From contig WELB01000015.1 of assembly GCA_009602725.1 (NCBI GenBank), positions 171,728 to 196,588 of the forward strand: 24,861 nucleotides of DNA. The letters are read 5' to 3'. Under the pieces are notes generated by a model, which saw nothing but the letters and a program-made list of their open reading frames with translations, ran no database searches and was not told where the DNA came from. Shown piece after piece: positions 2,592-22,120 of the stretch; position 1 is the first letter of the stretch, and the number at the start of each line of letters is the position of its first letter. Source of the DNA: Spirogloea muscicola (Eukaryota > Streptophyta > Zygnematophyceae > Spirogloeales > Spirogloeaceae). The translations under genes and the position numbers were made by a program.

Positions 2592-5500
2592 ATGGCGCCG
2601 CGGCCTGCGCCGTGGCCGCCGCGGCGCGCGCGCCCGCCCGGGCGCGNCGGCGGCCGCGGGGCGGGAGGCCTCCTCCAACAGGACGTCGGAGGCGCCGGCG
2701 GCAGCATCGGCAACGCCGCCGGCGTTGCCTACCTCCCGCATGGCGTCTACCTCTGCGACCTGCGGCACGACGCCTGGGACGATTCCGCGGCGGCGTTGGC
2801 GGCGCCGGAGGCGGCGGCAGCCGCGGCGGCGCCCGACGGCCTCGTCTCCCGGTGGCGCATGAAGGACCGGGTGAGACTGTGATCACGCTGCCGAAGTTAA
2901 GGAGCTAGCAGAGGATTTAGCGAAGGAAATAACGAAGGAGTTAGCGAAGGAGTCAGCAAAGCTGCATACTTGCTGCAGCTGGGGAATGACGCTAGCCATG
3001 GCGCCTGCGCTGCCTCCCCCGGCCTCTCAGATGAAGACCGGCGGCGTGGCGCTGGTGGTGTGCCTCAACATCGGCGTCGACCCCCCCGACGTCATCAAGA
3101 TCTCCCCCTGCGCCCGCCTGGAGTGCTGGATAGGTCAGGTCCTGCAGGAGGAAGCGCTTTCACCAGCTCACCAGTGCAGTCGTGCACGTGCACATTCCTG
3201 CAAGCTGCGGTGTGGGCTGCCCTTGTGTCACCTTGGGCAGATTCATTTGGGTCACATATGTTCAGCTTGTTGGGAATCATTGTTCAGTGAAGGGACTCAA
3301 GTATTCCATGATGCAAAGATTGAACATTGTTTTACTGCGTGACTTGTCTCCTCATCTGCTACTGCCAGCATCCTGCAGCCTCGTCGTCCTCATGCTTCTC
3401 TGGAGCCACAGCATAATGGCAGCAGCTTGTCATGAGCTGTCTATTGTCTTATGCACATGGCTCTTGTTCACAAGCTATAGGTGACATGGATGGTCTCGTT
3501 CTGATGAGTCCCTTATACTGTCGGCCGCTTTTCAGACCCCTTCTCCATGCCAGCACAGAGGGCGCTAGATGCCATCGGCAGAAACTTGCAGGCACAGTAC
3601 GAGCGATGGCAGCCACGGGTAAGAGCTAGCTCCTTGAATATATGCCAAACTCCTCAAGAAGTGTACTAGAGATAAGGCAGATGCCTTGCTGTGTCATGAT
3701 CACAGCAATCCAAAGTGCATAAAGGTTCTGGCAGAAAGATGTCCATTGCTATACAAGTGGTCAATCAAAGCACCTATTGCCACTTTTCTTTCTGAACGCC
3801 TTTGCCGCAAGAGCGGCATGCAGGCCAGGTACAAGATGCAGCTGGATCCAACTGTAGAGGACGTCAAAAAGCTGTGCACGTCCTCGCGGCGGAATGCCAA
3901 GACTGAACGCGTGCTCTTCCACTACAATGGGCATGGTGTACCCAAGCCAACTGTCAATGGAGAAATTTGGGTGTTCAATAAGGTCGGTCATTCTCGTTGT
4001 AATTGCTCTGTGGTTGGCTGAAGAGGCCTCAAGCCTAAGACGGGGGCTTACTTGTGTGTTGCATTGGTTCTTAATGTTTACAGAGCTATACTCAGTATAT
4101 ACCACTCTCTGTATACGAGCTGGAGTCGTGGCTTGGAACACCTTCCATTTACGTCTTGGATTGCTCGGCGGCTGGTACCATCGTCAACGCGTTCTGCGAA
4201 GTCAGTGATCATCGAGGCCTGGCCTGGCCAGCATAGGCAGCTTGTCATGCAATCTTCGTGTCACCCTTGCTTTCTCTGACACAGAAGTACTGGATCTATG
4301 TCTTGGCAATTGGGTCCTTTAGTTGACATCGGGTCCTTTAGTTGACATCAACAATGGAGGCGAATTGAAAGTAGCGTTGTGGTCAACGCAGAGGCCAGAG
4401 TGGGGACATGGAGGCTCTTCTGTCCCATCCATGAAGGAGACCATCATCCTGGCAGCATGTGGGGCTAGCGAAATCCTGCCGCAGAATGCTGATCTGCCAG
4501 CGGACATCTTCACCTCTTGCCTGACTACGCCGATAAAGATTGCTCTACAGTGGTAATACTGGCTCTCTGGTCAAGATACATTGGTTGATTGAAGGTGCTT
4601 GAAGGCTTTGCAGAGTGCTCTGAAATGGATCGCAGAGCTTGTTCATTTGCAGGTTCTGTCCTAGGTCACTATTGAAGGACACTTTGGACAAGGATTTGGT
4701 GGACAGAATACCTGGCCGGCAACAGGACCGCAAAACCCCCCTGGGGGAGCTAAACTGGATATTCACGGCCATTACAGATACAATAGCCTGGAATGTCCTG
4801 CCTAGAGGTTGCTGCTTAACCCTCCCACTTAGACCTGAGGCAGACCAACCGTTGGTCTGACTGAATAATGCCTTCTTCACTTGCACTTGACTGCTACTAT
4901 GGTGCAGTGTGTGGGTAGAATAGCTGCATACATGCATCACTGCGGCATATGGTCCTCCACGTACAAAGTGTTGCTTTAGGGAAGACCTTAGCTCTTATAA
5001 GTTGCTAACTTGTGGCCAAGATATCAATCACTAGCTGAGATAAGTGGCGTGTCTGTTACTGTGCCAGACCTCTTTCAGCGGCTCTTTCGCCAAGATCTTC
5101 TTGTGGCCAGCCTCTTCCGCAATTACCTCCTTGCCGAGAGGATCATGCGGGCAACAAATTGCACGCCTATTTCACACCCAAGACTTCCAGCCACACACCA
5201 GCACCACATGTGGTAAGTGCTCTACATGATTTTATTGCTCGTGGACTTTGGAAGGCTGATGGCATAACTGAAGGTTACTTGCTAGCTCTGGTCTCCAGCC
5301 TTTGGCAGGACTGCTCTGTATATACTACACATACAGTGAACGGCTGTTGTTCATAACAGGCATGCTTGGGATTTGGCTGCTGAGATATGCTTATCGCAGC
5401 TGCCAACACTCCTCAATGATCCAAATGCGGAGTTCCAGGTGTCGCTTTATCTCTCTGAAACCCCTTAAGATGGATCCACAGTGCTAGTCAGCCATTAGCA

Positions 5501-8500
5501 CAACCTCTGCTTTTCCAGCATCTCAGACGTGCCTGCTTACTGTTCGCCAGACAAAGCTGGATTGCAGTCCTCACTTTCATCTACTTGTTACACGCAGCCA
5601 AGCCCCTTCTTCACGGAGCAGCTAACAGCTTTTGAGGTTTGGTTGGAGCACGGATCTGAGGAGAAAAAACCCCCAGAGCAGCTTCCAATTGTCCTGCAAG
5701 TACGCGACCATTACTCTGAGAGCCTGCAGGCTACCAAGGCTTAGCAATATGTAAGGCACATAGCAGTGTTTCTCTTATGGAATTTATAGGGCAGTTACTT
5801 ATGACTTTCTTATATGCAGGTTCTCTTGAGCCAGTCTCACAGACTACGAGCATTGAAGCTTTTGGGCCGCTTCCTAGATATGGGAGCCTGGGCAGTCGAT
5901 CTGGTGAAGCTTTTACCAACGCTTTATTGTCCATCTGAAGTAAAAGCTTGCAGCTAGTGACCGAATTTAGGTTGTGTCACGATCAGCAGGTATAGTGTAT
6001 GCTGGAGCTTTCTATGTCAAGTATCCCATGCTGACTACTGACCCTGTTGTGTGCTACAGGCCTTATCTGTGGGAATCTTTCCATATGTGCTGAAGCTTCT
6101 GCAGACAACTGCGACAGAGCTGCGGCAGATACTTGTGTTTATATGGACCAAAATTTTGGCTCTTGACAAAGTGAGTGCGGCTTGGGATGTCAGAAGTCAT
6201 CAATGTGCTCACACCGGGTGCAGTCTATATCATACTAACACAGATAAGGGTACATTGTCTTTGTGGAGTTGTTGCTTATTATCATACTTTCCTACTGTTG
6301 CAGTCCTGTCAGGTGGACTTAGTCAAGGACGGTGGACATCTGTATTTCATCAAGTTCTTAGATAGTCGGGAAGCTTATGGCGACATCAGGGAGAGGGCAA
6401 TGACTGCCTTTGAGCGGGCCATGGCTGCTTTTGTACTTGCAGTAATTGCCGATAGTCACCCTAAAGGGCAAGCTGCCTGCATCCAGGTAAGAGGGTTCCG
6501 GTTTCAGGTCAAAGAGTACCATTGTATGTGTACCTAGCTTCTGACTGAGTAGCTGAAGCCCAAAGCCTCTTACTTAGTCTATCTTGATAGGTGTTGCTCA
6601 AGCCCTTGAAGCTTTCCATAGCTTAGAATTGAGAGCTTAGCCTCGGATTAGTGGACAGCTCCTGCTTTTTTCCTCAGCTTGAATAGAATAATGTAGAGTA
6701 GAGTAATACTAGATTAGAATCCTAACATTAGACTACAAAAGACTGACTAGAGTGCTCAGCCTTCAGGTGCCTCCAAGTACAGTTGGCGAAGACACCTTCT
6801 GACCCGCTCCTTCTGAGCCTTCCAATGTCATTCTCCCTTGTAGGCTGGCTTGGTTGGCATCTGCCTGGTGCACATCCAGGCGGCCCCACAGGGGGAGCCT
6901 CTGCTCCTCCAGTGGCTGTGCCTGTGCTTGGGTAAGCTGTGGGACGGCGCGCGCAGTGCTCAGCAGCTCGCTCTCAGGGATCAAGCCCCCCTCATTGTTG
7001 CTCAGCTCCTCACTGAACCTAAGCCCGAGGTCAGAGCAACCTTTCCTTTTTGTTATATTCCTTGCTCGTGAGCCTGTTAGTGGCAGAGTCTTACAACACT
7101 GAGATTCCTGCAGAGTATGGCAAAAAATGCACTCATTGTGTAGTATTATTTTGACACTCTTTTCACGTTCTTGGCAGCAGTCTCAGCACCACCTAACATT
7201 GTCCGTGTCGTGCTGAAGTACTCTTAAGCTGCTCAGCGTCCAGAGCGCAGCATGTCCACAGCTTAACCAGTCAACAACGAGTTGAATACTTACCCAAAAG
7301 TACTGTTTGTGATTGGCAGGTGAGAGCCTCTGCAACTTACACTTTAGGGACTCTTATACACTTTGGACCGAGTGCCAGTGAAGCTAGCCACCATGGGGGC
7401 TCCATAGAGGAAGAGTCAGCGGAAGGCTCAATAAGCGACCAAGCAGACGAGAATTCGTTGGCCGAGGAGCGCAGCATTGCACGATCTCTCCTCACCGTGC
7501 TCAATGATGCAAGTCCGCTTGTGCGCATGGAATTGGCAGTTGGTGAGCTCCCACACTACATGGTAACACAATGGTAGAGAATTATGGAGAGAAGTCGACT
7601 GTGATAAGGTCATACATACTTACGGACAACAAGAAGTACAAGCTAAAAGTGTTGACAGAATGTCTATGCCTCTGTTGGACTGGCCATGGTCAGTAGCTCA
7701 TCCTACGCAATCCCTTGTGCCCCATGACAGCACTGGCAAGGCTTGTGCACAGCCACAACCGCCTCTTCTGCAGAGCAGCGGCGGCGTACCTCAAGCCGCC
7801 ATCAAGTTTCATCCTTACCTCCTCAGCCTCCGCCAGGACACTCCCGGCACATCATGCCTTCTCCCCGCAGCTTGCTTTTGTGGGTGGAAGCTTCCTCGGC
7901 GAGCAGGCCCATGGCAGCTTCCAGCGTGGCCTAGGCTCACTTGCAGTGAAGAACCATCCCACTCCCTCGGTTGCCGTGGCTTCATCCTCCAGCCTGACCG
8001 TGCTGGTGGGCGCTTCGCCATCACCTGCAGTGGGCCCTTCGCCTTTCTTGTATGACGAATTGCCAGACAGGGGGAGAGAGGGGAGAGACTCTTCACAGGC
8101 TCCGACCTCGGCCAGGGCTAGCCTGGCTGATCGCTCTACAAACGACAGTATCACAGGTCATACTGACAGGAGATTGAATGGAAGGGTAGAGGAGGCCGAG
8201 AAGTCTGACGAAGAGCTTGAAGATGCAAGAGCGAAGGGGCTGGCTGATGTAAAGAAGGACGATGAAGCTGACCCACATGGCGAGGTTGTTGATGCGGAGA
8301 GAGGAGAAGATGGTGCTAATGGCTTGCCAGCTGAGTCTGGACGGCTTGAAGACGACAGAGCGCAGAACGAGGCGGAGGACCAGGCAACCTATGTGCAGTG
8401 CATCATGGCCATATACACCTTAGCGCGAGACCCTTCGCCAAGGGTTGCAGCGTTGGCAAGGCAGAGCCTTCGAAGCGTCGGAGTTGAGCCCGTAATCAAG

Positions 8501-11500
8501 GTGTTACCCACACCAGGCACAGGTCTTGGAGAGCAGAATGCACCGCAAGTGCAGGCTGCAAGAAGCGGGATGCCTCCGTATCCTGTGTCCATGCCAGGCT
8601 TGACGCGCTCCACCTCTTGGGTAGCGACTTCCACCTCAGGTATCCTCTTTGGATCCCTGCCACTTTGCTCCTGTCAATCAACTCATTGGCTTCTGTCCCT
8701 CTGTCGACAAGCTCTGTGGACTGCTGTTCAGCTATTGCTACTGTGCACCAGTGCATAAGCGGAAGTGTAGCCCTACTTCAAGCAAATGCATATTCTTGTT
8801 GCTCTAGGGAACATGGGAAATATGTGGCGAGCAGCCACTCCAAGCCCGCCGTCATCCGCTGCCGCATTCTTATCCACGCCCGCTGGCATGCGAAGAGCTG
8901 CTTCTTCGTACGATTTTGCGTCACCTGCCGCAACAGCGGGTGCCCGTGGGGCATACTTGGCCAACATGACCTCACCTCCCCCGAAAGCAAAGCAACATTC
9001 CAAAGCAGCCTTGGCACAGGTACGAGCTCTGCTCCTTCTCAAGAGATGGCCATGGCCCACTTTGATTTGACAGGAGGGCATCCATGTCAAAATTGCAACA
9101 TCTTGCTCCTGAAATTGTCAGTCTTAGTTCTTGACCTCCTTGCTTCTTTGGCTTGACTTGCATGCTCAGTCCTAAGATTGCTAGCCTAAGTGCTCGACCT
9201 TTCTCCTCCTTGATTCTTTGGCTACTTACATGTTCAGATGTTGATTTAAGCTCCTTCTAAGAGGAAAGCCTGCCATGTACCAATCTGGAGCATTTGGATA
9301 CGCCTGGACTCCTGTATGTCGATATGTCCAACTTTCTGGCCTTCTTTGATATTTCAGTGCTATGTCTAACAGGTACCTGTGGACTCCTCCATGGGAGCAG
9401 GATCCAGCACTCCTGTGCAAGAGCCTCCAGGACTCCCTCAGTCGACGTTGTATAGCTGGTCATGTGGCCACTTCTCCCGTCCTCTGCTCGAGCTTGCAGT
9501 GGATGATGAGGGTGATCATCGCCGGCAAGAACGAGAGAGGGCTGCGCTGGATGGCATCTCGGTCGCACACCATAGTGGTAAGTGTCACAAGTGACTGGTG
9601 ATTGCCTTGCCTGGAGACTGTCTGGCTTGTCATTGGCTTCGCAGTTGTGGCGCAAGTGTCTGGTTTGGTGAAGGTGTCAATTAATTAGCATGAAGATGTC
9701 AGAGGGCAGGCTGACAATTTGCTCCAGCCTGCGTGCCACACCTCCCTGCTGCCACGCCACTTCTTGGTGATGGTTGGAAGGGCTGAGTGTCACTTTGACA
9801 TGTTCAAAGCTAGCAAGCTGTATGTATATTGATGTGACCCATCGTGCAATGCTTACTGGTGTCCAATTGAAGTCCTGAAAGGCTTGTCAGTGTACTGATA
9901 TGGAAACTTAACGGAGATTTTACTTTTATGTACAGTAGTCAGCAAGGTCAGCGACCAGATTGCAAGCTTTGACACAGAGGCAGAGGTTGGAAGTCGTGCT
10001 GTCCTGCTGCACCCTTTCGTCCCCCTGGTCTGCATTGCTGACGAGGTCGAATGCATTAGGTGAGTGTTTGGCTACTCGTCAGGCTTGAGCCTGTAGGCAC
10101 GATACCACAGTGCTGTACATGCTGGTTGCATTGCACGGAGATTTTTAAGGTGGCAACCAAGCTAGGTGCTTGTCGTATCTTAGATGCAGTGATCTGAGTC
10201 TCTTGGACTTATTCTGCCTTCTACTTCAAACATTTACATAGGACTTCAAAGGGTTCGTCTGCACTTGACTTAGTGAATCATAAGAAAGCCCTGGCACTAG
10301 GAGTGCAGTTGGAAAGAGGTCATTGAGACTGCAGGCTAGCTTGTGTAGTCACACTTGACACATACCACAGCTTCCTTGGGTATTGAATCTTTTTGGATGT
10401 CGCCACTTCAAGTGCATTTCTCGTTAGACCATCACTATATGCTGAGATCACTCGACTTATACCAACAAATGCTTACTTATCGTCAACAGGATATGGAACT
10501 ATGAGGATGGAGTAACCATGAATATCTTCCAGAATCAGTCCTCGCCCGGAGAAGGAATAAGTCGGCTTTGCCTGCTTAATGAGTTGGACGAGTCTTTGCT
10601 CCTCATAGCCTCATGTATGTATGACAAGCTTGTGACCTCCACCTGGGCAGCTGTGACAATGTCTGTGCAGCCAGGGTGCACAATGGAGGTGCAGCCTTTT
10701 GCATGTTGTCTGATAGTTATGGCTCATATGCTGCTCAGAGGATGTATTGGAGCACTTGAATGAAGATCTGCAGACCAGGTTATTTGTCTCACACAGCAAG
10801 AAAGATTTGACAGCGATTGTCTGACAAGTATTAACTGCATTGAAGGAGCCCTGCTGACATAAGACCTGTTCTTATGACAGGTGATGGAACTGTCAGGGTG
10901 TGGAAGGATTACAGTCAGCAGGACAAGCAGAGAATGGCATCAGCATGGCTGGCTGTACAGGGTCACCGACCTGGAGCTCGGGGTAAGGGCGCAGTGGTTG
11001 ATTGGCAGCAGCTCATGGGTTTTCTGGTAAGCGCTGCCTCACTTTCTAAGTACAGTGGAATAGATGTCAGCATTTGTATGTTATTGATGCCTGATTTCTT
11101 GCTATATCAGTGCTCACAGGCTTCAAGGTGCCGGTGGGTTCTGGTCATGTCCGGTCTAGCTAAGATCGTCAATGTGGCATCTGGCGGCTGTGTCTGCAAC
11201 TTAGGCATACTTGTCGACAAAGTTGGCGTTGGTAATGGCCTCTTGCCTTCAACAGGGACAAGGCAATTAGACATGGATGACATGGGGGTACGAATGGGTT
11301 GTGATAGCTAGAGGCATTGTCACTGTGGATTAGTGGCGATGCTGAGTGTGCACATAGAGTTGTGGAACATTGCATCCCTTGAAAAGGAGGACAAGCCTGC
11401 AGCACATGTCTGACGCTTGAGCATTGCACCTTCTGTTTTGTTTTTGCTCGGGGCAGTATGCATCTGGGGAGATATCCTCTATCATGGTCTGGGACTTGCA

Positions 11501-12934
11501 TCGGGAGCTCCTCGCATACAACGTCCCTACACAGTCTGACCATGCAGTCACGGCCCTGGTACAGCTCCTGTGCCAAGAAATATCTGAAAACTGGCATCAG
11601 TATTTTATGTATCTCTGTTTCAGTTGCAGACATAGCGATGCTTTTGGCCTTTTTTGGGAGAAGCATAGCAGTGCATAATGTCAAAGTAGCTCAGGAGATG
11701 ACGCATGGTCTACGTCTTGACACGGAGCAGAGGTCTGAGCTTGTGCTTCACTCCTGTACTGTGCAGTCCGCTTCACATGTCCATGCTGGACACTTGGTGG
11801 CTGGATGCAGTGATGGCTCTATTCGCATCTTCGACATGCGAGCCCGTGGCTCGTAAGCCCATCAGAATGCTCAGTAGTCCATAAGTTTGTCTGTCAAACG
11901 TCAAGCCTGAGAATGCATGATGAGATGGTGTTGGACACTTTGGACTTTTGTCAGGCCATGCTTGATATTTGCAAGTGGAAGATGGACACAGTCCTCAGCT
12001 TGTTAATATGTGACTGCGTTGACCTATCATTTGGAAATCTTCTGCTTGCTTGGCAGCCTCTACGAGATATCTGCATCTGCGCAAGGCTTTTGATGACTGA
12101 AGCTATCTAGATAAAACATGATGACTATGAAGAGATGCTAAAGTCGGAATTGTGTTGCCAGTGTTGTATGCTCCACCAGGCCGCATGCGCAGCGAGTTGT
12201 TGGTATTGACTACCAGCCTGGCATGGACCCTACTAGGGTATGAGATACTCAATTCCCTATGGTACCCGCCAGCTATCTGATGCAGTAAAATTACTACATG
12301 CGCACGGATTCTGCTGTCCTGATTGCTATTATCAAAGCATCACAGCGTCTCTCTGTCATGCGCAAGTGTCGTACTTGAAGGAGATCGTCTCGTGTGTTCA
12401 CTGGTGCAGTTAGTTTCAGCCTCCGTTGGCGGGGATATTAAATTTCTTGATGTTCGGAGGGATGGCCTGCCATATATGTCATTGGATGCCCACAAGGGCA
12501 ACATGACTGCGCTAGCAGTACACCGGCACGCCAACGTGATTGCCAGCGGCAGCGCCAAACAGTACATAAAGGTCTGGCTGCACACATTCTTCTTAACTTC
12601 TTGGGCCCTTCACTTCGGCCTGTCATAACATCCAGTGTTGCATTTGGTGTTATATAAGATAGCCACTTATAATTGTCAAGTTGCTGCACTGACGTTGATC
12701 ATGCTCAAGCATGCCTTTAGCTTGACCACCTCAAGTCCTTGAATGCTGGTCGTGCAGGTCTTTAGCATGGGTGGCGAACAGCTGAGTATGGTAAGGTATC
12801 ATAACAGTTTTTTGGGACAGCGGATTGGACCAGTCAGCTCCCTCCACTTTCACCCTTACTCGGTTCTCCTCGCAGCCGGGGCAAGTGACTCGATCGTCTC
12901 AATTTATGCTGGCGAGAGTGTCCACCCCCGGTAG
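2592..12934 (+). CDS. RAPTOR: RAPTOR, regulatory-associated protein of TOR (TORC1 scaffold), 26 exons
   Basis: Exons: 2592..2870, 3031..3133, 3536..3618, 3824..3982, 4084..4200, 4392..4552, 4653..4807, 5068..5212, 5360..5438, 5598..5699, 5820..5903, 6060..6170, 6304..6486, 6844..7029, 7320..7542, 7731..8639, 8808..9019, 9373..9577, 9939..10059, 10490..10614, 10881..11026, 11457..11558, 11767..11852, 12180..12237, 12410..12571, 12758..12934. Total 4,473 nt, 1,490 residues, no frameshift. RAPTOR recruits substrates to the TOR kinase. The N-terminal caspase-like RNC domain (about residues 70-250) shows FHYNGHG (His188/His192) and LDCSAAG (Cys235), then [20 protein letters not shown] repeats follow (about 300-760), then a long linker containing an acidic stretch (about 874-941). 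The C-terminal WD40 propeller includes [18 protein letters not shown] and [12 protein letters not shown]. Length and order match plant RAPTOR1. An upstream in-frame ATG at 2511 is possible, but 2592 is preferred because a likely acceptor ends at 2548. The single N (2647) makes one residue unknown. Confidence 0.95.
2899..2958 (+). repeat. 12-nt minisatellite, five units, in RAPTOR intron 1
   Basis: Five consecutive 12-mers of the type AAGGAGTTAGCG run from 2899 to 2958, each differing from the others at a few positions. They sit 28 nt after the exon-1 donor. In one frame they would read KELA-like tetrapeptides, but that frame is not continuous with the exon. Confidence 0.8.
4312..4349 (+). repeat. 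Perfect 19-bp tandem duplication in RAPTOR intron 5
   Basis: GGGTCCTTTAGTTGACATC occurs twice head to tail (4312-4330 and 4331-4349). Each copy contains a TTTAG that resembles a 3' splice site. The acceptor that matches the RAPTOR family is downstream at 4391. Confidence 0.85.
6391..6432 (+). repeat. 21-bp in-frame tandem duplication in RAPTOR exon 13
   Basis: Two adjacent 21-nt units (6391-6411 and 6412-6432) encode ERAMTAF and ERAMAAF, residues 556-569. The copies differ at several, mostly third-position, sites, so the duplication is not very recent. The plant and human family members I remember have one copy here. Confidence 0.8.
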
Positions 12935-14400
12935 TTGGAGCCCCTGAAGAGGGACTGCCGTGGCTACCAGCCACCAGCCACTTGCTCACAGAGTTGCACA
13001 TAGGTATGTGCAGTGTTGCTCTTTAGTCATAGCAATTATTAGATCATCATCCCCTTCCTCCCAACGCCGAGTCCTCAGCACTCCTCCGCCTCCTTTAATT
13101 GAGCTTGACATTCCTCACTCGCACTCCATTAGTGCCAAGCAACGATCTGTACAGGAAGGACCTCACAGCCCTTGGGTTTGGAAGCCCCACATGGTGAATT
13201 ATGGCGCCATCTGCAACTACCTTAACAGAAGAGAGAGCCCGTTGAAGGCGGGGTTGATGGCAGCTGTACAATGTTTGGTCGGAGTCACTTGAAGGATGCT
13301 CTGTAGAGGTCAAAAGGGACGGTCGTGCGGCACTGTCACACGGGCTTGAGGGCCAAAGTATGGGTCTGAAACGTTGGCCACTATGAGAAGGTGCTCTGTC
13401 CACGGGGCCAGCGTGCTGGTCCGAATGCGAGCATGCTCACGCACGTCTTGCGGCAGTGTCCTGCAGAAGAAGCATTGACCGAAGAGTAAGAAAGCGAGTA
13501 GTGAGTGGCGAATGACCAGAGCGGCCAAGTACATAGCAATGAGCATTTTGCAGGCCACCTTCTGGGGTGGTGGCCGCCCGCCCTCGAGGCCCCAGACTAC
13601 GGGGTTAGCCAGCATATGGCTGGCCTGGCCGGATTGGGCTCGGAGGTTGATGGCATTGGTGCTTGGCCAGCTCAGCCTGCTCCTTCGAAACTGCTTGTCT
13701 TGTCACTTGGCCGCCTTGGGACACTCAGTACCCTCTCCTGTGCTAGCCGCCCCTTCTCTCAGCCACCGCCCAAATTTGGGAAAGTCGCCGCTGGCTTGGA
13801 GGCGATGTTGGGAGTGCAGGCGAATGCGCGAACCTGCGCTTAAGACAGTGCACTTAGGGCCACTGTTAAAGAGGGACGGTTACTATGAAAGGCCAGCCTG
13901 AATGTGGACATTGTCTATCACGAGATGACAAACCACTCAGCAAGAAGAAGTGGCTAGCAGGGACTGCTAGCCACGCAGCAGTCCCTGCTCAACTGCCCGC
14001 CAAGTAGCAGGGAAGCAAAGGCTCCTCAAGATAATTAAGCTCATTCCCTTTGAATCAGCTTGATTTCCTCTCTTCCACAGCCACCGCCTTATTCGGGCAA
14101 GGGCTGTATGAAGCAAGTCCCAAAAAACTCGAAAAGGTGAAGGCCAGCTCAGGGGAACGGGCAAGTCTTGAGGAGGTATCACAACGCTGAGTATGTGTGG
14201 CGGTAGCCAAGGTTTAGCACATGCAGGTGCAAGGCGAACGCGAACGTCTGGACTAATAGCAGCTTTTTTTTTCCCGTCGCCTGTCCCTCATAGCCATTGT
14301 CGACACTTTCGGCTGCTTGGGTCCTCGCTTCCATACCCTACTTGAGAACATAGCGAGTCTGGGAAATGCACTACGAGGATATGCTTCCAGCCCAGATGGG
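12935..14400. other. Noncoding region after RAPTOR
   Basis: Contains the RAPTOR 3' UTR and undetermined sequence. The open frames (for example 13505-13843 +) show no recognisable family. Around 13880-13915 the complementary strand vaguely resembles the 3' UTR of the retroelement tails further right, which would make it a decayed remnant. The paired hairpins at 13950-13989 are the only clear structure. Confidence 0.4.
13950..13989. repeat. Two overlapping perfect inverted repeats
   Basis: GTGGCTAGCAG (13950-13960) is perfectly complementary to CTGCTAGCCAC (13964-13974), with a 3-nt loop. AGCAGGGACTGC (13956-13967) is perfectly complementary to GCAGTCCCTGCT (13978-13989), with a 10-nt loop. 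The two stems share bases, so only one can form at a time. Confidence 0.85.
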
Positions 14401-14584
14401 TATGCCGGCAGCCTATCGGTCATTTTTGCGACGTCGGGTGTCAGCTTGTCTGCAGCGAGCTCAGGCTCATGCGTTGCATCAGAAAGCTGGTCGAGCCTTG
14501 GCTGGTAGTTCGAGAGCTTGTCGATTGCCGTCCGGTATTCGAGCATCAGTTAGCGACCTCTATGTGCTGACTTATGGTTACTGA
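14401..14584 (+). pseudogene. Retroelement ORF C-terminal tail (left arm)
   Basis: The frame contains RRRVSACLQRAQAHALHQ, then KAGRALAG, and ends VSDLYVLTYGY-stop (TGA 14582-14584). The same layout (Arg/Ala/Gln helix, then KAGRAL/RAGRAL, then an SDLxLLxRGY end) is seen at 15297-15518 + and in the right arm. It is only the 3' end of an ORF, with no upstream catalytic region attached. Confidence 0.6.
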
Positions 14585-14876
14585 GCGGGTCAGCTTAGCA
14601 GCAGGTGACGTACATTTGTCAATGTGCTTGCCTTTGTACTTGGCCACACATGGCCTCCCCATCTCTTAATACACACGTCTTTGTCCCCTTGAGGGGGAAG
14701 TGGAGTGTGTATCAAGTTGTGGAGGGCCTGTGTGGCCAAGTAGTAAGGCAAGTATATTGACAGATGTACATCACCTGCTGCTTGAGGTGTGTAGTAAGTG
14801 ATGGAGGGCCTCTGTGGCCAAGTACAAAGGCAAGCACATTGACAACTGTACATCACCTGCTGCTAAGCTGACCCGC

Positions 14877-15060
14877 TCAGTAACCACGAGTCAGCACATA
14901 GTGGTCGTTAAGTGATGCCCGAGTACCGGATGGCAATCGACAAGCTCTTGTGCCGCCAGCTAAGGCTCGACCAGCTTTCTGATGCAACGCATGAGCCTGA
15001 GCTCGCTGCAGACAGGCTGGCACTCGACGTCGCAGAAATGACTAAGTAGGCTGCCGGCAT
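14877..15060 (-). pseudogene. Retroelement ORF C-terminal tail (right arm)
   Basis: On the minus strand the right arm reads VPACLQRAQAHALHQ, then KAGRALAGGTRAC, and ends HYVLTRGY-stop (TGA complement at 14877-14879). A TAG just upstream in the frame and several substitutions relative to the left arm show decay. Confidence 0.6.
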
Positions 15061-15296
15061 GCCCGGAGGGAAGAGACGAAGCAGCTCTACCCAACGGGGC
15101 AAGGGCTTGGGATAGCTGCTTTGTTTCTGTGTGCTTGTCTTCCTTAGCGCTTCCCCTGGCCCCCTTCTCGTACTTTGTTCATTCTTTTTTGTATTGGCTT
15201 GAATTGGCCTCCCTTTCAATTCATGCGCCCCGCGCGCCTTCTCTCTTTTGGGCTGGCTTGTCCAGCCCCGATCCTCAATGGGCGAGCCCTTTCTTC

Positions 15297-15518
15297 AACG
15301 CCGCCGGGTCGCTCGCCCAGGTCTTTCGCATGCGCTTGGCGGTATCGTTCCAGCAATCCCTTGCCCACGCTGTCCACACGCGCGCAGGACGCGCTCTGGC
15401 CCGTGCGCTGCACCTTCGTGCCGGGAGAGCCCTCGCTGCTGCCTCTGGCTCTGTCCAGGGGACCCACTTCCAGGACCCTAGCCTCTCTGATTTGCGGCTG
15501 CTTAGCAGGGGTTACTGA
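15297..15518 (+). pseudogene. Retroelement ORF C-terminal tail
   Basis: Reads AAGSLAQVFRMRLAVSFQQ, then RAGRALA twice, then SDLRLLSRGY-stop. The first part matches SLAQVFRMRLAISMQ in the longer fragment at 19056-19683 on the minus strand, so this is the same protein C-terminus. No upstream domain is present, consistent with a 5'-truncated insertion. Confidence 0.65.
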
Positions 15519-15660
15519 GTAATTTGTAGCTGCTTTCTTTCTTTGTGTGCTTTGGTTTCTTAGCGCTTCCTCTGGCTTCCTCTGGCCCCCTTCTCGTTCT
15601 TTGTTCATTCTTTTTTGGGCTGGCTTGTCCAGCCCCTATCCTCAATGGGCGAGCCCTTTC

Positions 15661-15752
15661 TTCTTCTGGCCGCGGCCTCCGGGTCTCGGCGGAGTGCCTC
15701 CTTCCCTGCCTCGAGCTACTCGGACCTGATGTTGCTCACTCGCGGGTACTGA
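15661..15752 (+). pseudogene. Retroelement ORF C-terminal stub
   Basis: A short frame ends SYSDLMLLTRGY-stop (TGA 15750-15752), matching the ends of the other tails. Only about 20 residues upstream look homologous. Confidence 0.55.
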
Positions 15753-15995
15753 GCTTCCCTAGTATGTTGTTGTGATTGGTAGAGTAGAGGAGTCCTTCCT
15801 CGGCTTCTCATTCTTCGGCTTTGGACATTGTCCATTCTTTTTGGGCTGGCTTTGCCAGCCCCTCTTTCTTTATGGGCGAGCCTTCTTCTTTCTTCTCTAT
15901 GGGCGAGCACTTGGTTTCTTTCTTGCTTGAGACATGCCAGCCCACAAAAAAGTGGAAACAGAAAGGAAGTGGCTCTCGCAAAGGGGGCGAGGGCT

Positions 15996-16096
15996 GTGGC
16001 AAGCCAGCCCGAAAGTGAGGTGGCTTCTCCCGAAAGAGAGAGAAGGCGCGCGGGGCGCATGAAATGAGGGGGAGGCCAATTCAAGCCAATACATTG
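15996..16096 (-). mobile_element. Inverted remnant of the retroelement 3' UTR
   Basis: The reverse complement carries TATTGGCTTGAATTGGCCTC, then CATGCGCCCCGCGCGCC and GGGCTGGCTTGCCA. The same order occurs at 15190-15265 on the plus strand. The hairpin here is degenerate. No coding tail is attached. Confidence 0.6.
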
Positions 16097-16120
16097 TTCA
16101 GGCAGAGTTTAGGCTGGGTG

Positions 16121-17145
16121 AGGAGGAGGATGGCGCCGACGCGCTGCTCCTCTCCATGAGGCACGAAAGGCCTCAATAGATCACAGCTCTGAGCACTCCT
16201 GGTGAGTCCCTCTTCTTTGAGCAGATCTCGCAGCGGTTCCTTCAAGAAGAGGCCCTGATGATCCTGGATGGGAGGTCACTCAGCTCGCCAGCAACAGTGC
16301 TACTCAGCCAGCATGGGAGCAAGTTAAAAAATAGCAAGAAGGGCAAGTACCAGAAGAAGTTGGACCGGTCTGAGGACACCTGCAACGCCTGTGGCAAAGA
16401 AGGGCCATTTGGCCAAAGACTGCAAGTTCAAGAAGAAGGTCCAGCAATCCAGCGGCAGCAGCATCGTCAACACCAATATCTACATGGCCCTGGCAGATCA
16501 GCCCCAGCAGCAGCAGCTTGACAACTGGATCATAGACAGTGGAGCAAGTCTGCACATGACGGGGAGACGGGAGCTTCTTCACCAGTTTACTCAACCGGCA
16601 GAGGTACTGTCTACCTTAGGGTGATGACTCAAGGTGTAGAGAGGGAGGTCATTTTGACCGACGTGCTGCTAGTGCCGGGAATTACAAGAAACCGGCTGTC
16701 AGTTTAGCAGGCGAGCGACAGAGGAGCCAACTTTATCTTCAACGGCGGCAAGTGTGTCTTCAGCAACAAGAAGGGCGAATTGCTGGGAGTGGCCAGAATG
16801 CAAGACAACCAGTTCCTGCTAAAGTGCAGAATCCAACAGGTGGAGACTGCATCAGCTCTGGCAGCGACAGCAAGTTCAACATCAAGTTCCCTCAAGTTGT
16901 GGCATCTCCGACTTGGCCATCTCAATGAAGACCAGCTGAGTTGCTCCAGTCGGAGAAGATGGTGGAAGGTCACCACTGAAGATTGGAAGACTCAGGAGCT
17001 CGGCATCTGCAAGGGATGTCAGCTGGGGATGCAGCAGCCAGAGCAGGAGCAGCTGCACCTGGGCAATACGTCAGCTGAGAAGGAGCCAGAGCAGCAGAAG
17101 CTGTACCGGGGCAGCATGTCAGCTGAGAAACAACAGACACGCTAG
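16121..17145 (+). pseudogene. Copia gag-protease fragment, degenerate (plus-strand arm)
   Basis: Matches the minus-strand Copia ORF at 17324-18475 from the gag C-terminus onward. Visible parts are ILDGRSLSSPATVLLSQHGS, a zinc knuckle (CNAC...AKDC) broken by a +1 frameshift, and the protease site WIIDSGASLHMTG. The pre-integrase region follows (LWHLRLGHLNEDQL, later CKGCQLG). Decay is clear: an in-frame TAG near 16176, a deletion of about 50 nt after the protease site (near 16590), and a CAG-to-TAG change near 16707. There is no integrase core, reverse transcriptase or RNase H. Confidence 0.85.
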
Positions 17146-18236
17146 CTGCTCCTGTGCTGCTGCGTCCTGTTATTTCTCAACTGACATGCTGCCCTGGTGC
17201 AGCTTCTGCTGCCCTGGCTCCTTCTCAGCTGACATGTTGCCCTGGTGCAGGTGCTCCTGCTCTGGCTGCTGCGTCCCCAGCTGACATCCCTTGCAGATGC
17301 CGAGCTCCTGGGTCTTCCAATCTTCAGTGGTGACCCCTTCCACCATCTATCTTCTTGGACTTAAGCAACTTCAGCTGTTCTTCATCAAGGTGGCCGAGTC
17401 TGGAGTGCCACAGCTCGAGGGTACTTGCTGTAGCTGCCAAGAATGATGCAGTCTCCACCTGTTGGGTCTTGCATCTCAGCAAAAACTGGTTGTCTTGCCT
17501 TCTGGCCACTCCCAGCAGTTCGCCCTTCTTGTTGCTGAAGACGCACTTGCCGCCATTGGAATTGAACTTCGCTCCCTTGTCGCTTGCCTGCTGAACTGAC
17601 AGCAGATTCCTTGCAACTCCTGGCACTAGCAGCACGTTGGTCAGAGTGACCTCTTTCTCCACACCTTGAGTCGTCACCCTGAGGTAGACAGTACCTCTGC
17701 CAGTTGAAGGCAAGGTCTGCTGGTTGCCGAAGGTGACTGTTGGCCCCTGGATAGCGTCAAACTGGTGAAGAAGCTCCTGTCTCCCCGTCATGTGCTGGCT
17801 TGCTCCATTGTCGATGATCCACTTGTCAAGCTGCTGCTGCTGGGGCTGTCCTGTCAGGGCCATGTAAACGTCGGTGTTGATGTCGCTGTTGATGTCGCTG
17901 CTGCCGCTGGATTGCTGGACCTTCTTCTTGGACTTGCAGTCTTTGGCCCAGTGGCCCTTTCTGCCACAGGCGTTGCAGGTGTCCTCCGAACAGTCCTTCT
18001 TCTTGTGGTACTTGCTCTTCTTGCTCTTCTCCACCTTGCTCCCATGCTGGCTGAGTAGCACTGTTGCTGGCGAGCTGAGTGACCTCCCATCCAGGATCAA
18101 CAGGGCCTCTTCTTGTAGAAACCGCTGCCAGATCTGCTCAAAGGAGAGGGACTCACTAGGAGTGCTCAGTGCTGTTACGAGTTGAGGCCATTCGTGCCTC
18201 ATGGAGAGGAGAAGCTCGTCGGCGCCATCCTCCTCA
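16121..18236. repeat. Palindrome of two Copia fragments, arms about 1.0-1.1 kb
   Basis: Sequence from 16121 to about 17135 is the imperfect reverse complement of about 17160 to 18236. The central unpaired spacer is only about 25 nt. The arms differ by substitutions, single-base indels and one deletion of about 50 nt in the left arm. Near the centre both arms encode two repeats of a short L(H/Y)xG(N/S)xS(A/V)EK module. Confidence 0.85.
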
Positions 18237-18475
18237 AATCGAGGGTCGGCAGCCCTCAGCTCGTTCATGATCCCCTGTATCTTGCAGATGTAGTCCTGGA
18301 TGCTGGCAGCTGGATCCCTCTTGGTCTCCCAAAGTTGAAGACGAAGGTGCGCCTTTGAAGCTCGGGTCTTCTTCTCGTAGATGTTGCAGAGGGTCCTCCA
18401 GGCGTCAGCAGCACTCCTGGCACCAAGGACATGCCGAGCTTGGCTGTCTGCCAAGGTTGAAGCGATCAGTGCCAT
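17324..18475 (-). CDS. Ty1/Copia gag-protease ORF fragment (minus-strand arm), 383 codons
   Basis: Gag of the UBN2 type: SAADAWRTLCNIYEKK, LRLQLWETKRDP, and SLSFEQIWQRFLQEE. A CCHC zinc knuckle (CNACGRKGHWAKDC) and a pepsin-like protease region follow. The protease site reads WIIDNGASQHMTG, so the usual D-S/T-G is D-N-G, and it is probably inactive. The GAG-pre-integrase segment LELWHSRLGHL comes next. A one-base insertion near 17350 breaks the frame. In the shifted frame it continues through CKGCQLG to a stop near 17170, right at the palindrome centre. The frame is open upstream of the Met at 18475, so the true start is unknown. There is no integrase core, RT or RNase H, and no LTRs were recognised. 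Confidence 0.85.
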   Translation of the reverse strand: MALIASTLADSQARHVLGARSAADAWRTLCNIYEKKTRASKAHLRLQLWETKRDPAASIQDYICKIQGIMNELRAADPRFEEDGADELLLSMRHEWPQLVTALSTPSESLSFEQIWQRFLQEEALLILDGRSLSSPATVLLSQHGSKVEKSKKSKYHKKKDCSEDTCNACGRKGHWAKDCKSKKKVQQSSGSSDINSDINTDVYMALTGQPQQQQLDKWIIDNGASQHMTGRQELLHQFDAIQGPTVTFGNQQTLPSTGRGTVYLRVTTQGVEKEVTLTNVLLVPGVARNLLSVQQASDKGAKFNSNGGKCVFSNKKGELLGVARRQDNQFLLRCKTQQVETASFLAATASTLELWHSRLGHLDEEQLKLLKSKKIDGGRGHH

Positions 18476-18518
18476 TGCAGCACTACCCTTCCGCCGCTTG
18501 TTGTCGTCTCCTCCAGTC

Positions 18519-18722
18519 GAGGCAGGTGCTGAGCAGAGCGCGTGGTCTCCCCTGCAGTCGCAGCTGGTCCTACCCGTCTTGAGGTTGGTGCTGAGGGTGG
18601 TGCTGGGGCAGATCGCGAGGACTCCCCTGCAGCCGCAGCTGACGCTCCTCCTTCTGAGGCTGGTGCTGAGGCTGGTGTTGGGGCAGCTCGCGTTGACTCC
18701 CCTTCAGCCGCAGCAGACTCGG
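18519..18722. repeat. Three tandem repeats upstream of the minus-strand Copia gag
   Basis: Units begin at 18519, 18581 and 18656 with GAGGCAGGTGCTG-like starts. The second unit is 75 nt and the first about 62 nt. On the minus strand they encode Ala/Pro/Ser-rich repeats that could be a gag N-terminal extension. The frame shifts before the Met at 18475. Confidence 0.65.
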
Positions 18723-18890
18723 CTGCTTAGCAGGGGTTACTGAGTGATTCGTAGCTGCTTTGTTTCTGTGTGTGCTTGTTTTTCTTAGCGCTTCCCCTGG
18801 CCCCCTTCTCGTACTCTGTTTCATTCTTTTTTGGGCTGGCTTTTCCAGCCCCTATCCTCAATGGGCGAGCACTTTCTTCTCTCTCCTCGT
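18716..18890 (+). mobile_element. 5'-truncated retroelement 3' end (stub plus 3' UTR)
   Basis: Starts within the coding tail: RLLSRGY-stop, TGA at about 18741-18743. The 3' UTR has the same blocks as at 15519-15660, including TTAGCGCTTCCCCTGGCCCC and the hairpin 18833-18851 (GGGCTGG / CCAGCCC, loop CTTTT). It meets the minus-strand element at 18897-19683 tail to tail. Confidence 0.65.
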
Positions 18891-19055
18891 CCCCGAAAGT
18901 GGGGGCTCGAAGTAAGGCAAGACAGCGCGGCCAGATTGACTGGTGGCTGGGAAAAGCCAGCCCAAAGGAATGGACAAGGTCTGAAGGAGCCGGAGTCGAA
19001 GCAGTCAGTTGTACGAAGGACTAGGACTAAGACATCAGCCATGGAACGCTCAGTC

Positions 19056-19683
19056 ACCTCTAGACAGGAGATGCAAGTCTGGGTAGCTAGCTGGCGGAAA
19101 GACGCCACCCTGACGGAAGCCGGAGGCCGAGCCAAAGCTCGGCCTGCGCGCAAGTGAACCGCGAAGGCAAGGGACCGCTGCATCGAGATGGCCAAACGCA
19201 TTCGGAAGACTTGAGCAAGAGACCCTGCGACGTTGAAGCCGGGCTGCTCGCCCTGCTGCCCGAGGCGGCGGGCCGCTGCACGCCGCGCAAGGCGGTGAAG
19301 CAAGTCAAGCCATTTCGTGCCAAAGGCTCCGTGCACGTCGATTGCCAGTGGAATAAACTCGTCTCCCACCGGGTGGTCCAAGTATTTCCGTTCCTTTTCG
19401 CCCGCCGCTTGGCGGACTGCGTAGCCCGCCTCCTCCGACGAGCGTTTGGCGCTGCTGGAAACAAGGCAGCCAGCCGTGACAACGTCGGCGATGAGCCGAG
19501 GCCCCCCGCCGAGCGCGCTGGCGACGAGGTCGGCGCGCCGGGTGTGGATGCGGCCATCCGCCCCAGCAGTCGGAGGCATGACGCTGGTGTTCTCGAGCGC
19601 CACCGTATAACCGGCCTCGACAAAGATGCCAAACATGGCATTCCGCAGCAGGTCGTGTGTTCCTGTCCCCGGCCCGCCCTCAA
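19056..19683 (-). pseudogene. Retroelement ORF C-terminal region, possible PD-(D/E)XK-like domain
   Basis: The longest copy of the tail family. On the minus strand it reads LRNAMFGIFVEAGYTVALEN, then TRRADLVASALGGG, LIADVVTAG, EKERKYLDHPVG, and FIPLAIDVHGAFGTKWLDLL, then the SLAQVFRMRLAISMQ tail. The order (Asp in RADLV, Asp in ADVV, a later K/R-rich segment, then a PLA(I/V)xxxGAFG motif) resembles the C-terminal domains of non-LTR-type reverse transcriptase ORFs in algae and bryophytes. Those domains look nuclease-like, but that comparison is from memory. A one-base shift near 19100 separates this frame from the LHLLSRGD-stop ending (stop complement 19050-19052). The 3' UTR runs on to about 18897, with a hairpin at 18945-18963. 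Confidence 0.5.
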
Positions 19684-19685
19684 AG

Positions 19686-19850
19686 TAGCGAAGCGCGGCC
19701 AGATTGACTGGTGGCTGGGAAAGGCCAGCCCAAAGGAACGGACAAAGTCTGAAGGAGCCGGAGTGCGAACGACTAGGACTAAGACATCAGCCAGGGAACG
19801 CTCAGTAACCTCTAGTCAGGAGATGCAAGTCTGAGTAGCTAGCTGGCGGA
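19686..19850 (-). mobile_element. 5'-truncated retroelement 3' end (minus strand)
   Basis: Direct repeat of 18921-19098: both contain GCGCGGCCAGATTGACTGG, then the hairpin, then GACTAGGACTAAGACATCAG. On the minus strand the stub reads PPASYSDLHLLTRGY-stop (complement 19802-19804), then a 3' UTR with the hairpin 19713-19731. It lies immediately upstream, head to tail, of the longer fragment at 19056-19683. Confidence 0.7.
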
Positions 19851-20103
19851 GTAGGAGTGGCAAGGTCGAGCCATGCGGCTGCTGATGTTAAAGAATCGGC
19901 TGTAAACTGCCAGCCAGATGCATACAGGTGGGGGGGGGGGGACGTCACGAGCCGTCAGATGCGCTCATCCGACGGACAGCAGCACCTACCTCGACGCTCC
20001 ACTTGGCACCACCCGAGACGCAACGGAGCTGCACACCGGCTCTCAAGCAGCGGAAGGCCCACGTCAGTGGAGATGTCAGCTGACTGCTGACCGCTGCAGC
20101 TGA

Positions 20104-20138
<35 letters not shown>

Positions 20139-20253
20139 CGCCGCCGTCGTCAGTCACGCGGCTTCGCGTTGGGTCCAGGGTACGGCGAGTCACAGCTGGA
20201 GCAGCGGCCGCCGCCCAGCCGCCTTCGCCGGTGCTGCGGCCAAGGCCACCGCG
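19851..20253 (+). promoter_or_regulatory. Upstream region and 5' UTR of the KAB1-like gene
   Basis: A run of G residues (19929-19941) is followed by ACGTCA (19942-19947). A second ACGTCA lies in CCACGTCAG (20061-20066). Paired ACGT cores are typical binding sites of plant bZIP factors, but short motifs like this also occur by chance. No TATA box is evident. The transcription start is not determined. Confidence 0.3.
20104..20136 (+). repeat. (GCC)11 microsatellite in the KAB1-like 5' UTR
   Basis: Eleven perfect GCC units directly follow an in-frame TGA (20101-20103), then GTC and GCC triplets. The frame stays open from here to the ATG at 20254. More CCG/CGG runs occur in intron 1 (20356-20468). 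Confidence 0.9.
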
Positions 20254-22120
20254 ATGGCCGCCGGCGCGGCGGCCATGGAGTACCGGCAGCTGGGCCGCAC
20301 GGGCCTCAAGGTGTCGGTGCTCTCGTATGGCGCCTGGGTCAGCTTCGGCAACCAGGTCCGCAGCCGCCGCCGCCGCCGCCGCTGCGCCGTCGCCGCCGCC
20401 GCCCCTCCGCCGGCCGTGCTCTGACGACGGCGGCGGCGTCGGCGGCGGCGGCGGCGGCGGCGTCGCAGGTGGACGTGGAGGCGGCGAAGCGGCTGATAAA
20501 GAAGGCGTACGACCTGGGCGTCAACTTCTTCGACAACGCGGAGGTGTACGCCAACGGCAAGGCGGAGGAGATCATGGGGCAGGCGATCCGCGAGCTGGGC
20601 CTCCGCCGCTCCGACCTCGTCATATCTACCAAGCTCTTCTGGGGCGGGCCCGGCGTCAACGAGAAGGGCCTGTCGCGCAAGCACGTCGTGGAGGGCGCGC
20701 GCGCCTCGCTGCGCCGCCTCGGCATGGACTACGTCGACCTCATTTTCTGCCACCGGCCCGACACCGCGACGCCCATCGAGGAGACCGTGCGCGCTATGAA
20801 CTTCGTCATCGACCAGGTTGCGCTCCCGCGGCTTTGCGCCCCGCTGCTGCTGCGCTCTCCACGGTCATCGAGAGGCGACGCTTCTGGGTTTTGCCAGACC
20901 GCAGCTGGGTCTTGGTTATCGACGCCATCTGAGGCGCTCTGCCGCTGTGTGGCGCTCGGTTGCTGCTGTGCTCTGCAGGGCTGGGCGTTCTACTGGGGCA
21001 CATCAGAGTGGTCATCGCAGCAAGTGACGGAGGCGTGCGAGGTGGCCAAGCGCCTGAACCTCGTCGGACCGGCCATGGAGCAGCCAGAGTACAACATGCT
21101 CACTCGCGAGAAGGTGCTGTAACCATACGCTCAAACGACTCTGACTGCACTGCTTGACCGTACTCGTGCCGCCCAACCGTATTCCGGTTGGTAGGCCACA
21201 GCGAATGGTTGCTAACAGCCTACCCATCAATATCAGCTTGTGGACCTGCCCACAAGGCCTTCTACCTTTGTGGCAGTCCGGTTGTGAGCACCATATGGCT
21301 GGTTCCCTTTGGCAGGTGGAGGCCGAGTACCTGCCGCTCTACAAGAACTATGGGCTGGGTCTGACAACATGGAGCCCGCTAGCATCAGGCGTGCTCACTG
21401 GCAAGTACACCAAGGACAACATTCCTCACGACTCACGCCTGGCACTTACCAACTACAAGGCAAGCCACTGGCCTCACAATAGACAACCCATCACTTATTA
21501 TTCTATACATTGTGCCCTTGTAGGATAACACTGTCAGGATGACTTGCTATTTAGCCTATGCTCTGATAGTGCTTGACATTGCTACTGTGGCTTGAAATGG
21601 ATTGGACATGTTGTTGGGGACAGGGCCTGGCAGAGCGCAAGCTGGTGGATGAGGTCCTGGACAAGGTTCAGCAGCTGCGGCCTATCGCAAAGGAGCTGGA
21701 TGTGACGCCGGCACAGCTCGCACTAGCATGGTGTGCCAAGAACCCCAATGTCTCAACTGTCATCACGGGTGCGACAAAGGAATCGCAGGTGCAGTGCAGC
21801 TGCTTTTGTTACCCAAATTCATATGTCAAAGTTGGCAGCTGTTTCTTTTACAGTCTGACCTCCTGACACAAGCGCAATGATGTTACTCAAAGGTGGCAAG
21901 TGTTAAGTCAAGCAGTGGGCTTGCAAGTTGGTAACCTGCATAGTTTTACAGAAAGTCAGTGATGAGGGTTGTTGAGCTGACTCTGGTGTGGACCATGGCG
22001 GCACAGATAGAGGAGAACATGAAAGCACTGGCAGCCATCCCGAAGCTGACGCCTGAAGTGATGGAACGCATTGAGGCCATTATTCGGAGCAAGCCAGCAC
22101 TGCCTGACAACTTCCGCTGA
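20254..22120 (+). CDS. KAB1: Aldo-keto reductase, voltage-gated K+ channel beta-subunit family (KAB1-like), 6 exons
   Basis: Exons join(20254..20355, 20469..20816, 20979..21113, 21316..21459, 21624..21788, 22007..22120): 1,008 nt, 335 residues, all phase-0 junctions, stop TGA 22118-22120. The N-terminus [19 protein letters not shown] starts the TIM barrel. The AKR catalytic tetrad is visible as Asp56 and Tyr61 in FDNAEVY, Lys89 in ISTK and His129 in [23 protein letters not shown] and [14 protein letters not shown] are hallmarks of Kv-beta proteins, and [10 protein letters not shown] belongs to the NADPH-binding end. The family binds NADPH and can associate with potassium channels. Length matches plant KAB1 (about 328). 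The first in-frame ATG after a stop is 20254, with a second Met at 20275. Intron 4 has a GC donor. Exons 1-2 are extremely GC-rich. Confidence 0.95.
21460..21623 (+). other. GC-AG intron of the KAB1-like gene
   Basis: The junction [15 protein letters not shown] is required by family similarity. It is met only by AACTACAAG|GCAAGC joined to GGGGACAG|GGC. AAG|GCAAGC is close to the known GC-donor consensus. Confidence 0.85.

Follow-up and report, generated by a model that had tools for sequence, protein, structure and literature searches.

A cluster of 5'-truncated tail ends of a probable restriction-like-endonuclease LINE in Spirogloea muscicola

Layout of the repeat cluster

The stretch of DNA analysed here, 24,861 nucleotides of contig WELB01000015.1 of Spirogloea muscicola (positions 171,728 to 196,588 of the forward strand; hereafter, the window), contains a repeat cluster at 14398-19851 that is sited between a Raptor-like gene and an aldo/keto-reductase gene (Table 1). 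The cluster most likely consists of about ten broken tail ends, closely packed one after another, of an R2/Dualen-type element. Specifically, we consider it probable that these are dead, 5'-truncated 3' ends of a non-long-terminal-repeat (non-LTR) retrotransposon, that is, a long interspersed nuclear element (LINE), which encodes a restriction-like endonuclease (RLE) and resides in a eukaryotic nuclear genome. An earlier note on this DNA had proposed a retroelement-like family of at least seven copies marked by a common C-terminal peptide. The retroelement-like character of the family is supported by the present analysis and all seven copies were recovered, to which we add two that the note missed, C0 and B2, comprising the 3' untranslated region (UTR) only, and a tentative one, H, near 16093.

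Table 1 Copies of the element and other features of the window (ORF, open reading frame)
Feature	Position	Strand	Content and limits
Copy A	14398..14679	+	last ~61 ORF codons, stop ends 14584; 3' UTR
Copy B2	14700..14782	-	3' UTR only, directly behind the 3' end of B; 14700 set by eye
Copy B	14784..15064	-	same segment and 5' end as A; stop ends 14877
Copy C0	15113..15296	+	3' UTR only; additional ~55-nt block ahead of the hairpin
Copy C	15297..15664	+	last ~73 codons (SLAQVFRMRL...SDLRLLSRGY), stop ends 15518; 3' UTR with hairpin
Copy D	15665..15897	+	at most ~28 last codons, stop ends 15752; 3' UTR; 5' end set at the end of C
Copy H (tentative)	15997..16093	-	C0-type UTR block and hairpin-like motif
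Copia gag/protease fragment, plus arm	16123-17149	+	PF13976
Copia gag/protease fragment, minus arm	17156-18235, to about 18499 by Pfam match	-	PF22936, PF14223, PF13976
Copy E	18720..18883	+	last 7 codons, stop ends 18743; 3' UTR; alignment to C ends 18880, last 3 bases by eye
Copy F	18905..19683	-	longest piece, comprising the RLE domain, the C-terminal extension, a frame-shifted tail and the 3' UTR; both limits by eye, alignment to G ends 18924; 5' end inferred
RLE domain of copy F	19259..19681, approximate limits	-	H...RAD-x14-DVV...KERKY...FIPLAIDVHG
Copy G	19684..19851	-	last ~15 codons, stop ends 19802; 3' UTR; abuts the start of F; alignment 19692-19850, remainder by eye
Raptor N-domain exon	3638-4018	+	PF14538, E 1e-25
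Aldo/keto-reductase gene	20091-21525, Pfam match from about 20250	+	PF00248, E 1.7e-34
GTPase-like exon	left end of window		PF01926, E 1.2e-7

Read in the sense of the element, the order is A+; B2- and B-; C0+, C+ and D+; H-; copia+ and copia-; E+; F- and G-. Neighbouring copies meet head to tail at C0-C, C-D, B-B2 and G-F, and tail to tail at A/B2, D/H and E/F, and the two head-to-head gaps are loose, one of 48 bp and the other of 2.6 kb, containing the copia fragments.

Homology, endonuclease signature and coding constraint

The frames that stop at 14584+, 14877-, 15518+, 15752+, 18743+ and 19802- all end in V/L-L-T/S-R/Y-G-Y-stop. The seventh reported frame, with the stop at 19050-, ends in LLSRGD-stop and is out of register with the RLE-coding frame of its own piece (copy F), so that the proposed peptide is common to six of the seven, while the DNA at all seven stops belongs to one repeat family (pairwise alignment; blastn E down to 6e-101). 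Counted as identical positions in aligned blocks, with gaps excluded, the identity is 252/280 for A/B, which are inverted relative to each other, 149/160 for C/E, 151/159 for F/G, 53/55 for C0/C, 82/88 for C0/E, 57/64 for D/E, 95/124 for C/F (over 15280-15403), 67/78 for B2/B and 81/99 for B2/A; the tentative copy H is identical to the C0 block at 56/60 positions and to the D hairpin at 17/18. Among the peptides of A, C, D, F, the F tail and G, eight of ten pairs have scores that were reached by 0 of 2000 shuffles, A/C and A/F among them, and for D and C the score is 72, the top of 2000 shuffles being 41. The G/A score was reached by one shuffle of 2000 and that of F-tail/A by 85 of 2000, which is not significant. 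Judged from these alignments, the likeness among the copies is DNA homology, not chance.

Some of the copies also include repeats of their own. TRF reports a period of 82 across 14705-14864, in the B2/B region. Copy C has an internal near-duplication at 15375-15437, HTRAGRALA followed by HLRAGRALA in the protein alignment. In copy D, the unit at the 3' terminus (...ATGGGCGAGC...) is partly repeated to about 15920 (TRF 15863-15923, 27-bp period) and resembles a very short extra copy.

Copy F, the longest, was described in the earlier note as carrying a nuclease-like domain, and this is borne out by the presence of the published LINE RLE sequence signature. The frame 18824-19786 (-), taken from stop to stop, reads ...THDLLRNAMF...RRADL...IADVV...EKERKY...FIPLAIDVHGAFG, that is, H, D...D and KERKY in the published order of H, [R]xD-x14-D (here RAD-x14-DVV) and KX2KY, with the conserved H, in THDLLRNAMF, 40 residues ahead of RAD. 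In the LINE RLE core as described (PMC5678591), the catalytic K is the first K of KX2KY, in helix 2, and H is located at the start of helix 1. The regular expression [RKP]xD...[DE]...KxxKY is matched by one of the 224 frames of at least 60 aa in the window and by 28 of 200,000 shuffles of F, or 17 of 200,000 when H is required, figures that serve as a guide and not as a blind test given that the expression was composed when both the sequence and the paper were known. By its signature, the domain is a predicted LINE RLE, which would adopt the RLE fold. The description of 19056-19683 as a single frame ending in the tail has to be dropped: the translation given for it contains two stops, and the tail lies in another frame.

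The coding sequence of F and C bears the imprint of constraint. Over 39 aligned codons, the two copies differ at 6, 5 and 19 sites in codon positions 1, 2 and 3, respectively; the nonsynonymous (dN) and synonymous (dS) distances are 0.14 and 1.19 by NG86 (ratio 0.12) and 0.20 and 0.58 by YN00 (ratio 0.34). Given these low ratios, the C-terminal extension is most likely to have been translated, and under selection, in the elements from which the copies derive. The copies themselves are decayed: F is frame-shifted ahead of the tail, and B contains one in-frame stop upstream of the final stop.

Termini, junctions and genomic setting

The 3' UTR, which the earlier note took to be similar in most copies, is shared within subfamilies and is of at least three types, A/B/B2, C0/C/D/E and F/G. 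The similarity of C0, C and E ends within a few bases of the same point, after GGGCGAGC[CA]CTTTCTTC, such that these copies terminate in CTTTCTTC, without poly(A); F and G have a common 3' end, and A, B and B2 a third one. In the C0/C/D/E type, the final part of the 3' UTR is a hairpin, GGGCUGG...CCAGCCC, followed by a short tail similar to CTTTCTTC. Six copies (C0, C, D, E, F and G) contain the letters GGGCTGG...CCAGCC, with the exception of a single stem base in G and F, and the hairpin forms in the minimum-energy folds of five of these six carriers, F being the exception. Two folded 3' ends stand out, those of D (z -4.6, 0/200 shuffles) and C (z -2.7, 2/200). The hairpin is nearly invariant among the copies, so that no covariation can be counted. 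Stem-loops are described as common at the 3' ends of stringent-type LINEs (PMC3747384).

The 5' ends are located at different distances before the stop: about 630 nt in F (by eye), 220 in C, 184-185 in A and B, at most 85 in D, 46 in G and 21 in E, and C0 starts ~9 nt after the stop. In copy E, the sequence shared with the other copies is limited to the last 7 codons and the 3' UTR, and a 75-bp tandem repeat lies upstream. Thus, 5' ends vary whereas 3' ends are fixed inside subfamilies, as predicted by target-primed reverse transcription (TPRT). The picture of 5'-truncated stubs with a fixed 3' end that the note had drawn applies within each subfamily, with the qualification that A and B, which have a 5' end in common, may have arisen by inverted duplication: they start at one place (14398 and 15064) and face each other as a palindrome, and therefore are not clearly two independent truncations. 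The differences between A and B over 42 codons, 4, 4 and 6 by codon position, are too few to decide between duplication and two insertions.

At two of the three testable head-to-tail junctions (C0-C, C-D and B-B2), the ORF is broken where it most resembles the 3' terminus of the element itself. When the 17-nt 3' end is compared with the ORF of F, the C0/C break coincides with the single best-matching site (2 overlapping windows of 610), as does the C/D break when the comparison is made with the ORF of C itself (4 overlapping windows of 199).

From its gene content (Raptor, aldo/keto reductase, GTPase-like), the window reads as nuclear DNA of a eukaryote. The Raptor-like gene is split into exons spanning 3638-11853 (+), with a weak WD40 match at 11383-11853 (E 0.01, under the cut-off). 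The PDB chains nearest to the aldo/keto-reductase exon are those of Kv-beta/AKR6, and GCC/CGG trinucleotide runs are found near the start of this gene. The copia arms, 16123-17149 and 18235-17156, form a palindrome with a 6-nt loop and are identical at 906 of 1009 positions, gaps excluded; they differ at 23, 23 and 44 sites in codon positions 1, 2 and 3. Given that most of these differences are in the third position, the arms seem to come from two selected lineages, not from one recent foldback. Six pattern matches of the copia ORF to viral contigs yielded no confirmed relative. The 75-bp tandem repeat (2.7 copies, 18519-18718), between the copia fragment and copy E, is Ala-rich in one frame.

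Origin of the cluster and relation to known elements

Under the mechanism that we propose, the last ORF of the element would encode a reverse transcriptase (RT), lost here, the RLE domain and an extension of ~70-90 aa ending in S-D-L-x-L-L-T-R-G-Y. The RLE would nick the target, reverse transcription would start at the structured RNA 3' end and stop early, resulting in variable 5' ends, and the free cDNA end would either be attached behind an older copy, at its 3' end, or jump onto a second element RNA, again at the 3' end. Such joining or jumping would have occurred at short homology at least twice, producing the head-to-tail stacks C0-C-D, B-B2 and G-F. Among the explanations proposed in the literature for the 5' junctions of LINEs is microhomology joining, and the RT concerned is reported to be capable of jumping between templates without homology (PMC6895275, PMC3510499). 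In this cluster, the two routes, insertion behind an older copy and a jump from one RNA to another, are not distinguishable. A more specific scenario, to which we assign a low likelihood, is a lineage of RLE LINEs in which joining or jumping takes place at the element's own 3' terminus (GGGCGAGC...CTTTCTTC). Incomplete cDNAs would be captured at ORF sites that resemble this terminus, so that head-to-tail and tail-to-tail arrays would grow on older copies and an RLE element would nest in itself in the manner of Zepp.

Several observations weigh against the assignment to an RLE LINE and against the junction mechanism. The 191-codon open frame occurs in 65 of 2000 shuffles and is weak evidence by itself, and, apart from the after-the-fact composition of the RLE expression, its looser form Kxx[KRQ]Y is matched by 216 of 200,000 shuffles. 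GXW, which follows strand 4 and is described as mutually conserved in LINEs and Prp8 (PMC5678591), is approached in F by HGAFGTKW (G-x2-W) but is not exact. Neither the RLE frame nor copy C has a match in Pfam, the RLE of F has none among PDB sequences, and two single-sequence AlphaFold models (mean pLDDT 43.0 and 43.5) are unusable. RT and the CCHC knuckle are absent from the copies, all of which start downstream of those domains, and no full-length copy was found in the window; no target-site duplication was established, the copies abutting one another such that the flanks are not readable. Eight of the ten folded 3' ends do not stand out (z -0.2 to -1.6). Scored against F, the C/D break is ordinary (52 of 606 windows), and the B/B2 junction, which involves another type of 3' end, shows no 3'-end homology, with at least 60 of 259 windows equally good; because of the latter, we slightly lowered our already small odds for self-terminus capture. 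The searches for relatives covered viral, plasmid and prokaryotic collections, and the locus search, which starts from one protein, reaches close relatives only. The RLE region (19109-19636) found no relative among viral contigs, phages, plasmids and bacterial and archaeal genomes, its peptide pattern matching 7 and 152 stretches in two of these searches with none confirmed by tblastn, and the F/C/A alignment gave 45 pattern matches in viral contigs, again with none confirmed. The 3' hairpin pattern had no match in viral contigs and one in genome contigs. This single match, in Pseudanabaena biceps, belongs to a longer inverted repeat of the bacterium; the best-matching windows there span 22-25 nt and include nothing beyond the hairpin, so that the match was treated as chance.

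Multiplication of the copies mainly by DNA-level events, that is, inverted or tandem duplication or foldback of one or two insertions instead of repeated TPRT, could account for the A/B palindrome with its common outer end, the likewise palindromic copia fragments, the UTR units in tandem and the A/B differences by codon position, which are compatible with neutral decay. We nevertheless regard this scenario as unlikely, given that duplication of one insertion is not expected to yield six or more distinct 5' ends combined with common 3' ends, or copies such as F and C that diverged under constraint as separate active lineages. The coincident starts of the short copies A and B would also fit a non-autonomous family, similar to short interspersed nuclear elements (SINEs), with the same 3' end as an RLE LINE, and green-algal SINEs with RandI tails have been listed (PMC3747384); however, coincident ends are expected from inverted duplication as well and A retains ~61 codons of open ORF, so that this origin of A and B appears quite improbable. 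Hardly any weight is given to a pseudogenized host gene family encoding an endonuclease-like domain, despite the constraint on the C-terminus, the lack of a Pfam family match and the lack of a visible RT: the fixed 3' UTR ends, the variable 5' truncation on both strands and the clustering with copia fragments all argue against it, as does the K in KX2KY, which is described for LINE RLEs, whereas Prp8, as described, has the K and Y of this motif without the second K (PMC5678591). A DNA transposon with terminal repeats was rejected, the A/B palindrome being absent from the other copies, and so was an LTR element, the direct repeats around the tails being the copies' own UTRs and tandem units.

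The nearest known kinds of elements, the R2 group and Dualen/RandI, have long been described, and the general kind represented here, most likely a degraded RLE non-LTR retrotransposon, is well known, with the placement extending to kind, not clade. The RLE LINEs of the R2 group (R2, R4, NeSL and HERO) and CRE are described as having the same RLE core of H, D...D and KX2KY (PMC5678591), and their clades as being defined on RT and domain structure (PMC4640811), both of which are missing from the present copies. R2 and Utopia insert in 28S rRNA and U2 snRNA genes, respectively, whereas Rfam gave no rRNA or snRNA match at the gathering score across the whole window, a result that covers the present locus only. 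Dualen/RandI of Chlamydomonas, which combine an apurinic/apyrimidinic-type endonuclease (APE) with an RLE, have the RLE in common with the copies described here, which lack APE and RT. All eight RandI families of green algae that are listed end in non-poly(A) repeats, for example, (ATT)n and (CTATTT)n, and a RandI-tailed SINE ends in (CTTT)n, short tails similar to those found here (PMC3747384). The Zepp and ZeppL LINEs of green algae form nested LINE clusters, as in this case (PMC3446292, PMC8226300), but Zepp is described as belonging to the L1 clade of LINEs and ending in (A)n (PMC3747384), whereas the clustered element has the RLE signature and a hairpin with a CTTTCTTC-like end. Identity with Zepp was rejected on the grounds of the RLE signature and the absence of poly(A) in C0, C and E. 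L1 elements are not known to have an RLE. Similar C-termini may be present in RT proteins of plants and algae, a possibility that was given no weight as evidence.

A probable identity, the 3' end of a LINE of the RLE type, can now be given to the peptide tail that originally lacked an explanation, and the hairpin with the CTTTCTTC end, together with the C-terminal LLTRGY, is a testable marker for full-length copies. On present evidence, the cluster is an ordinary retroelement graveyard; if the junction rule holds genome-wide, it would provide natural evidence for the capture of broken-off cDNA ends of an RLE element.

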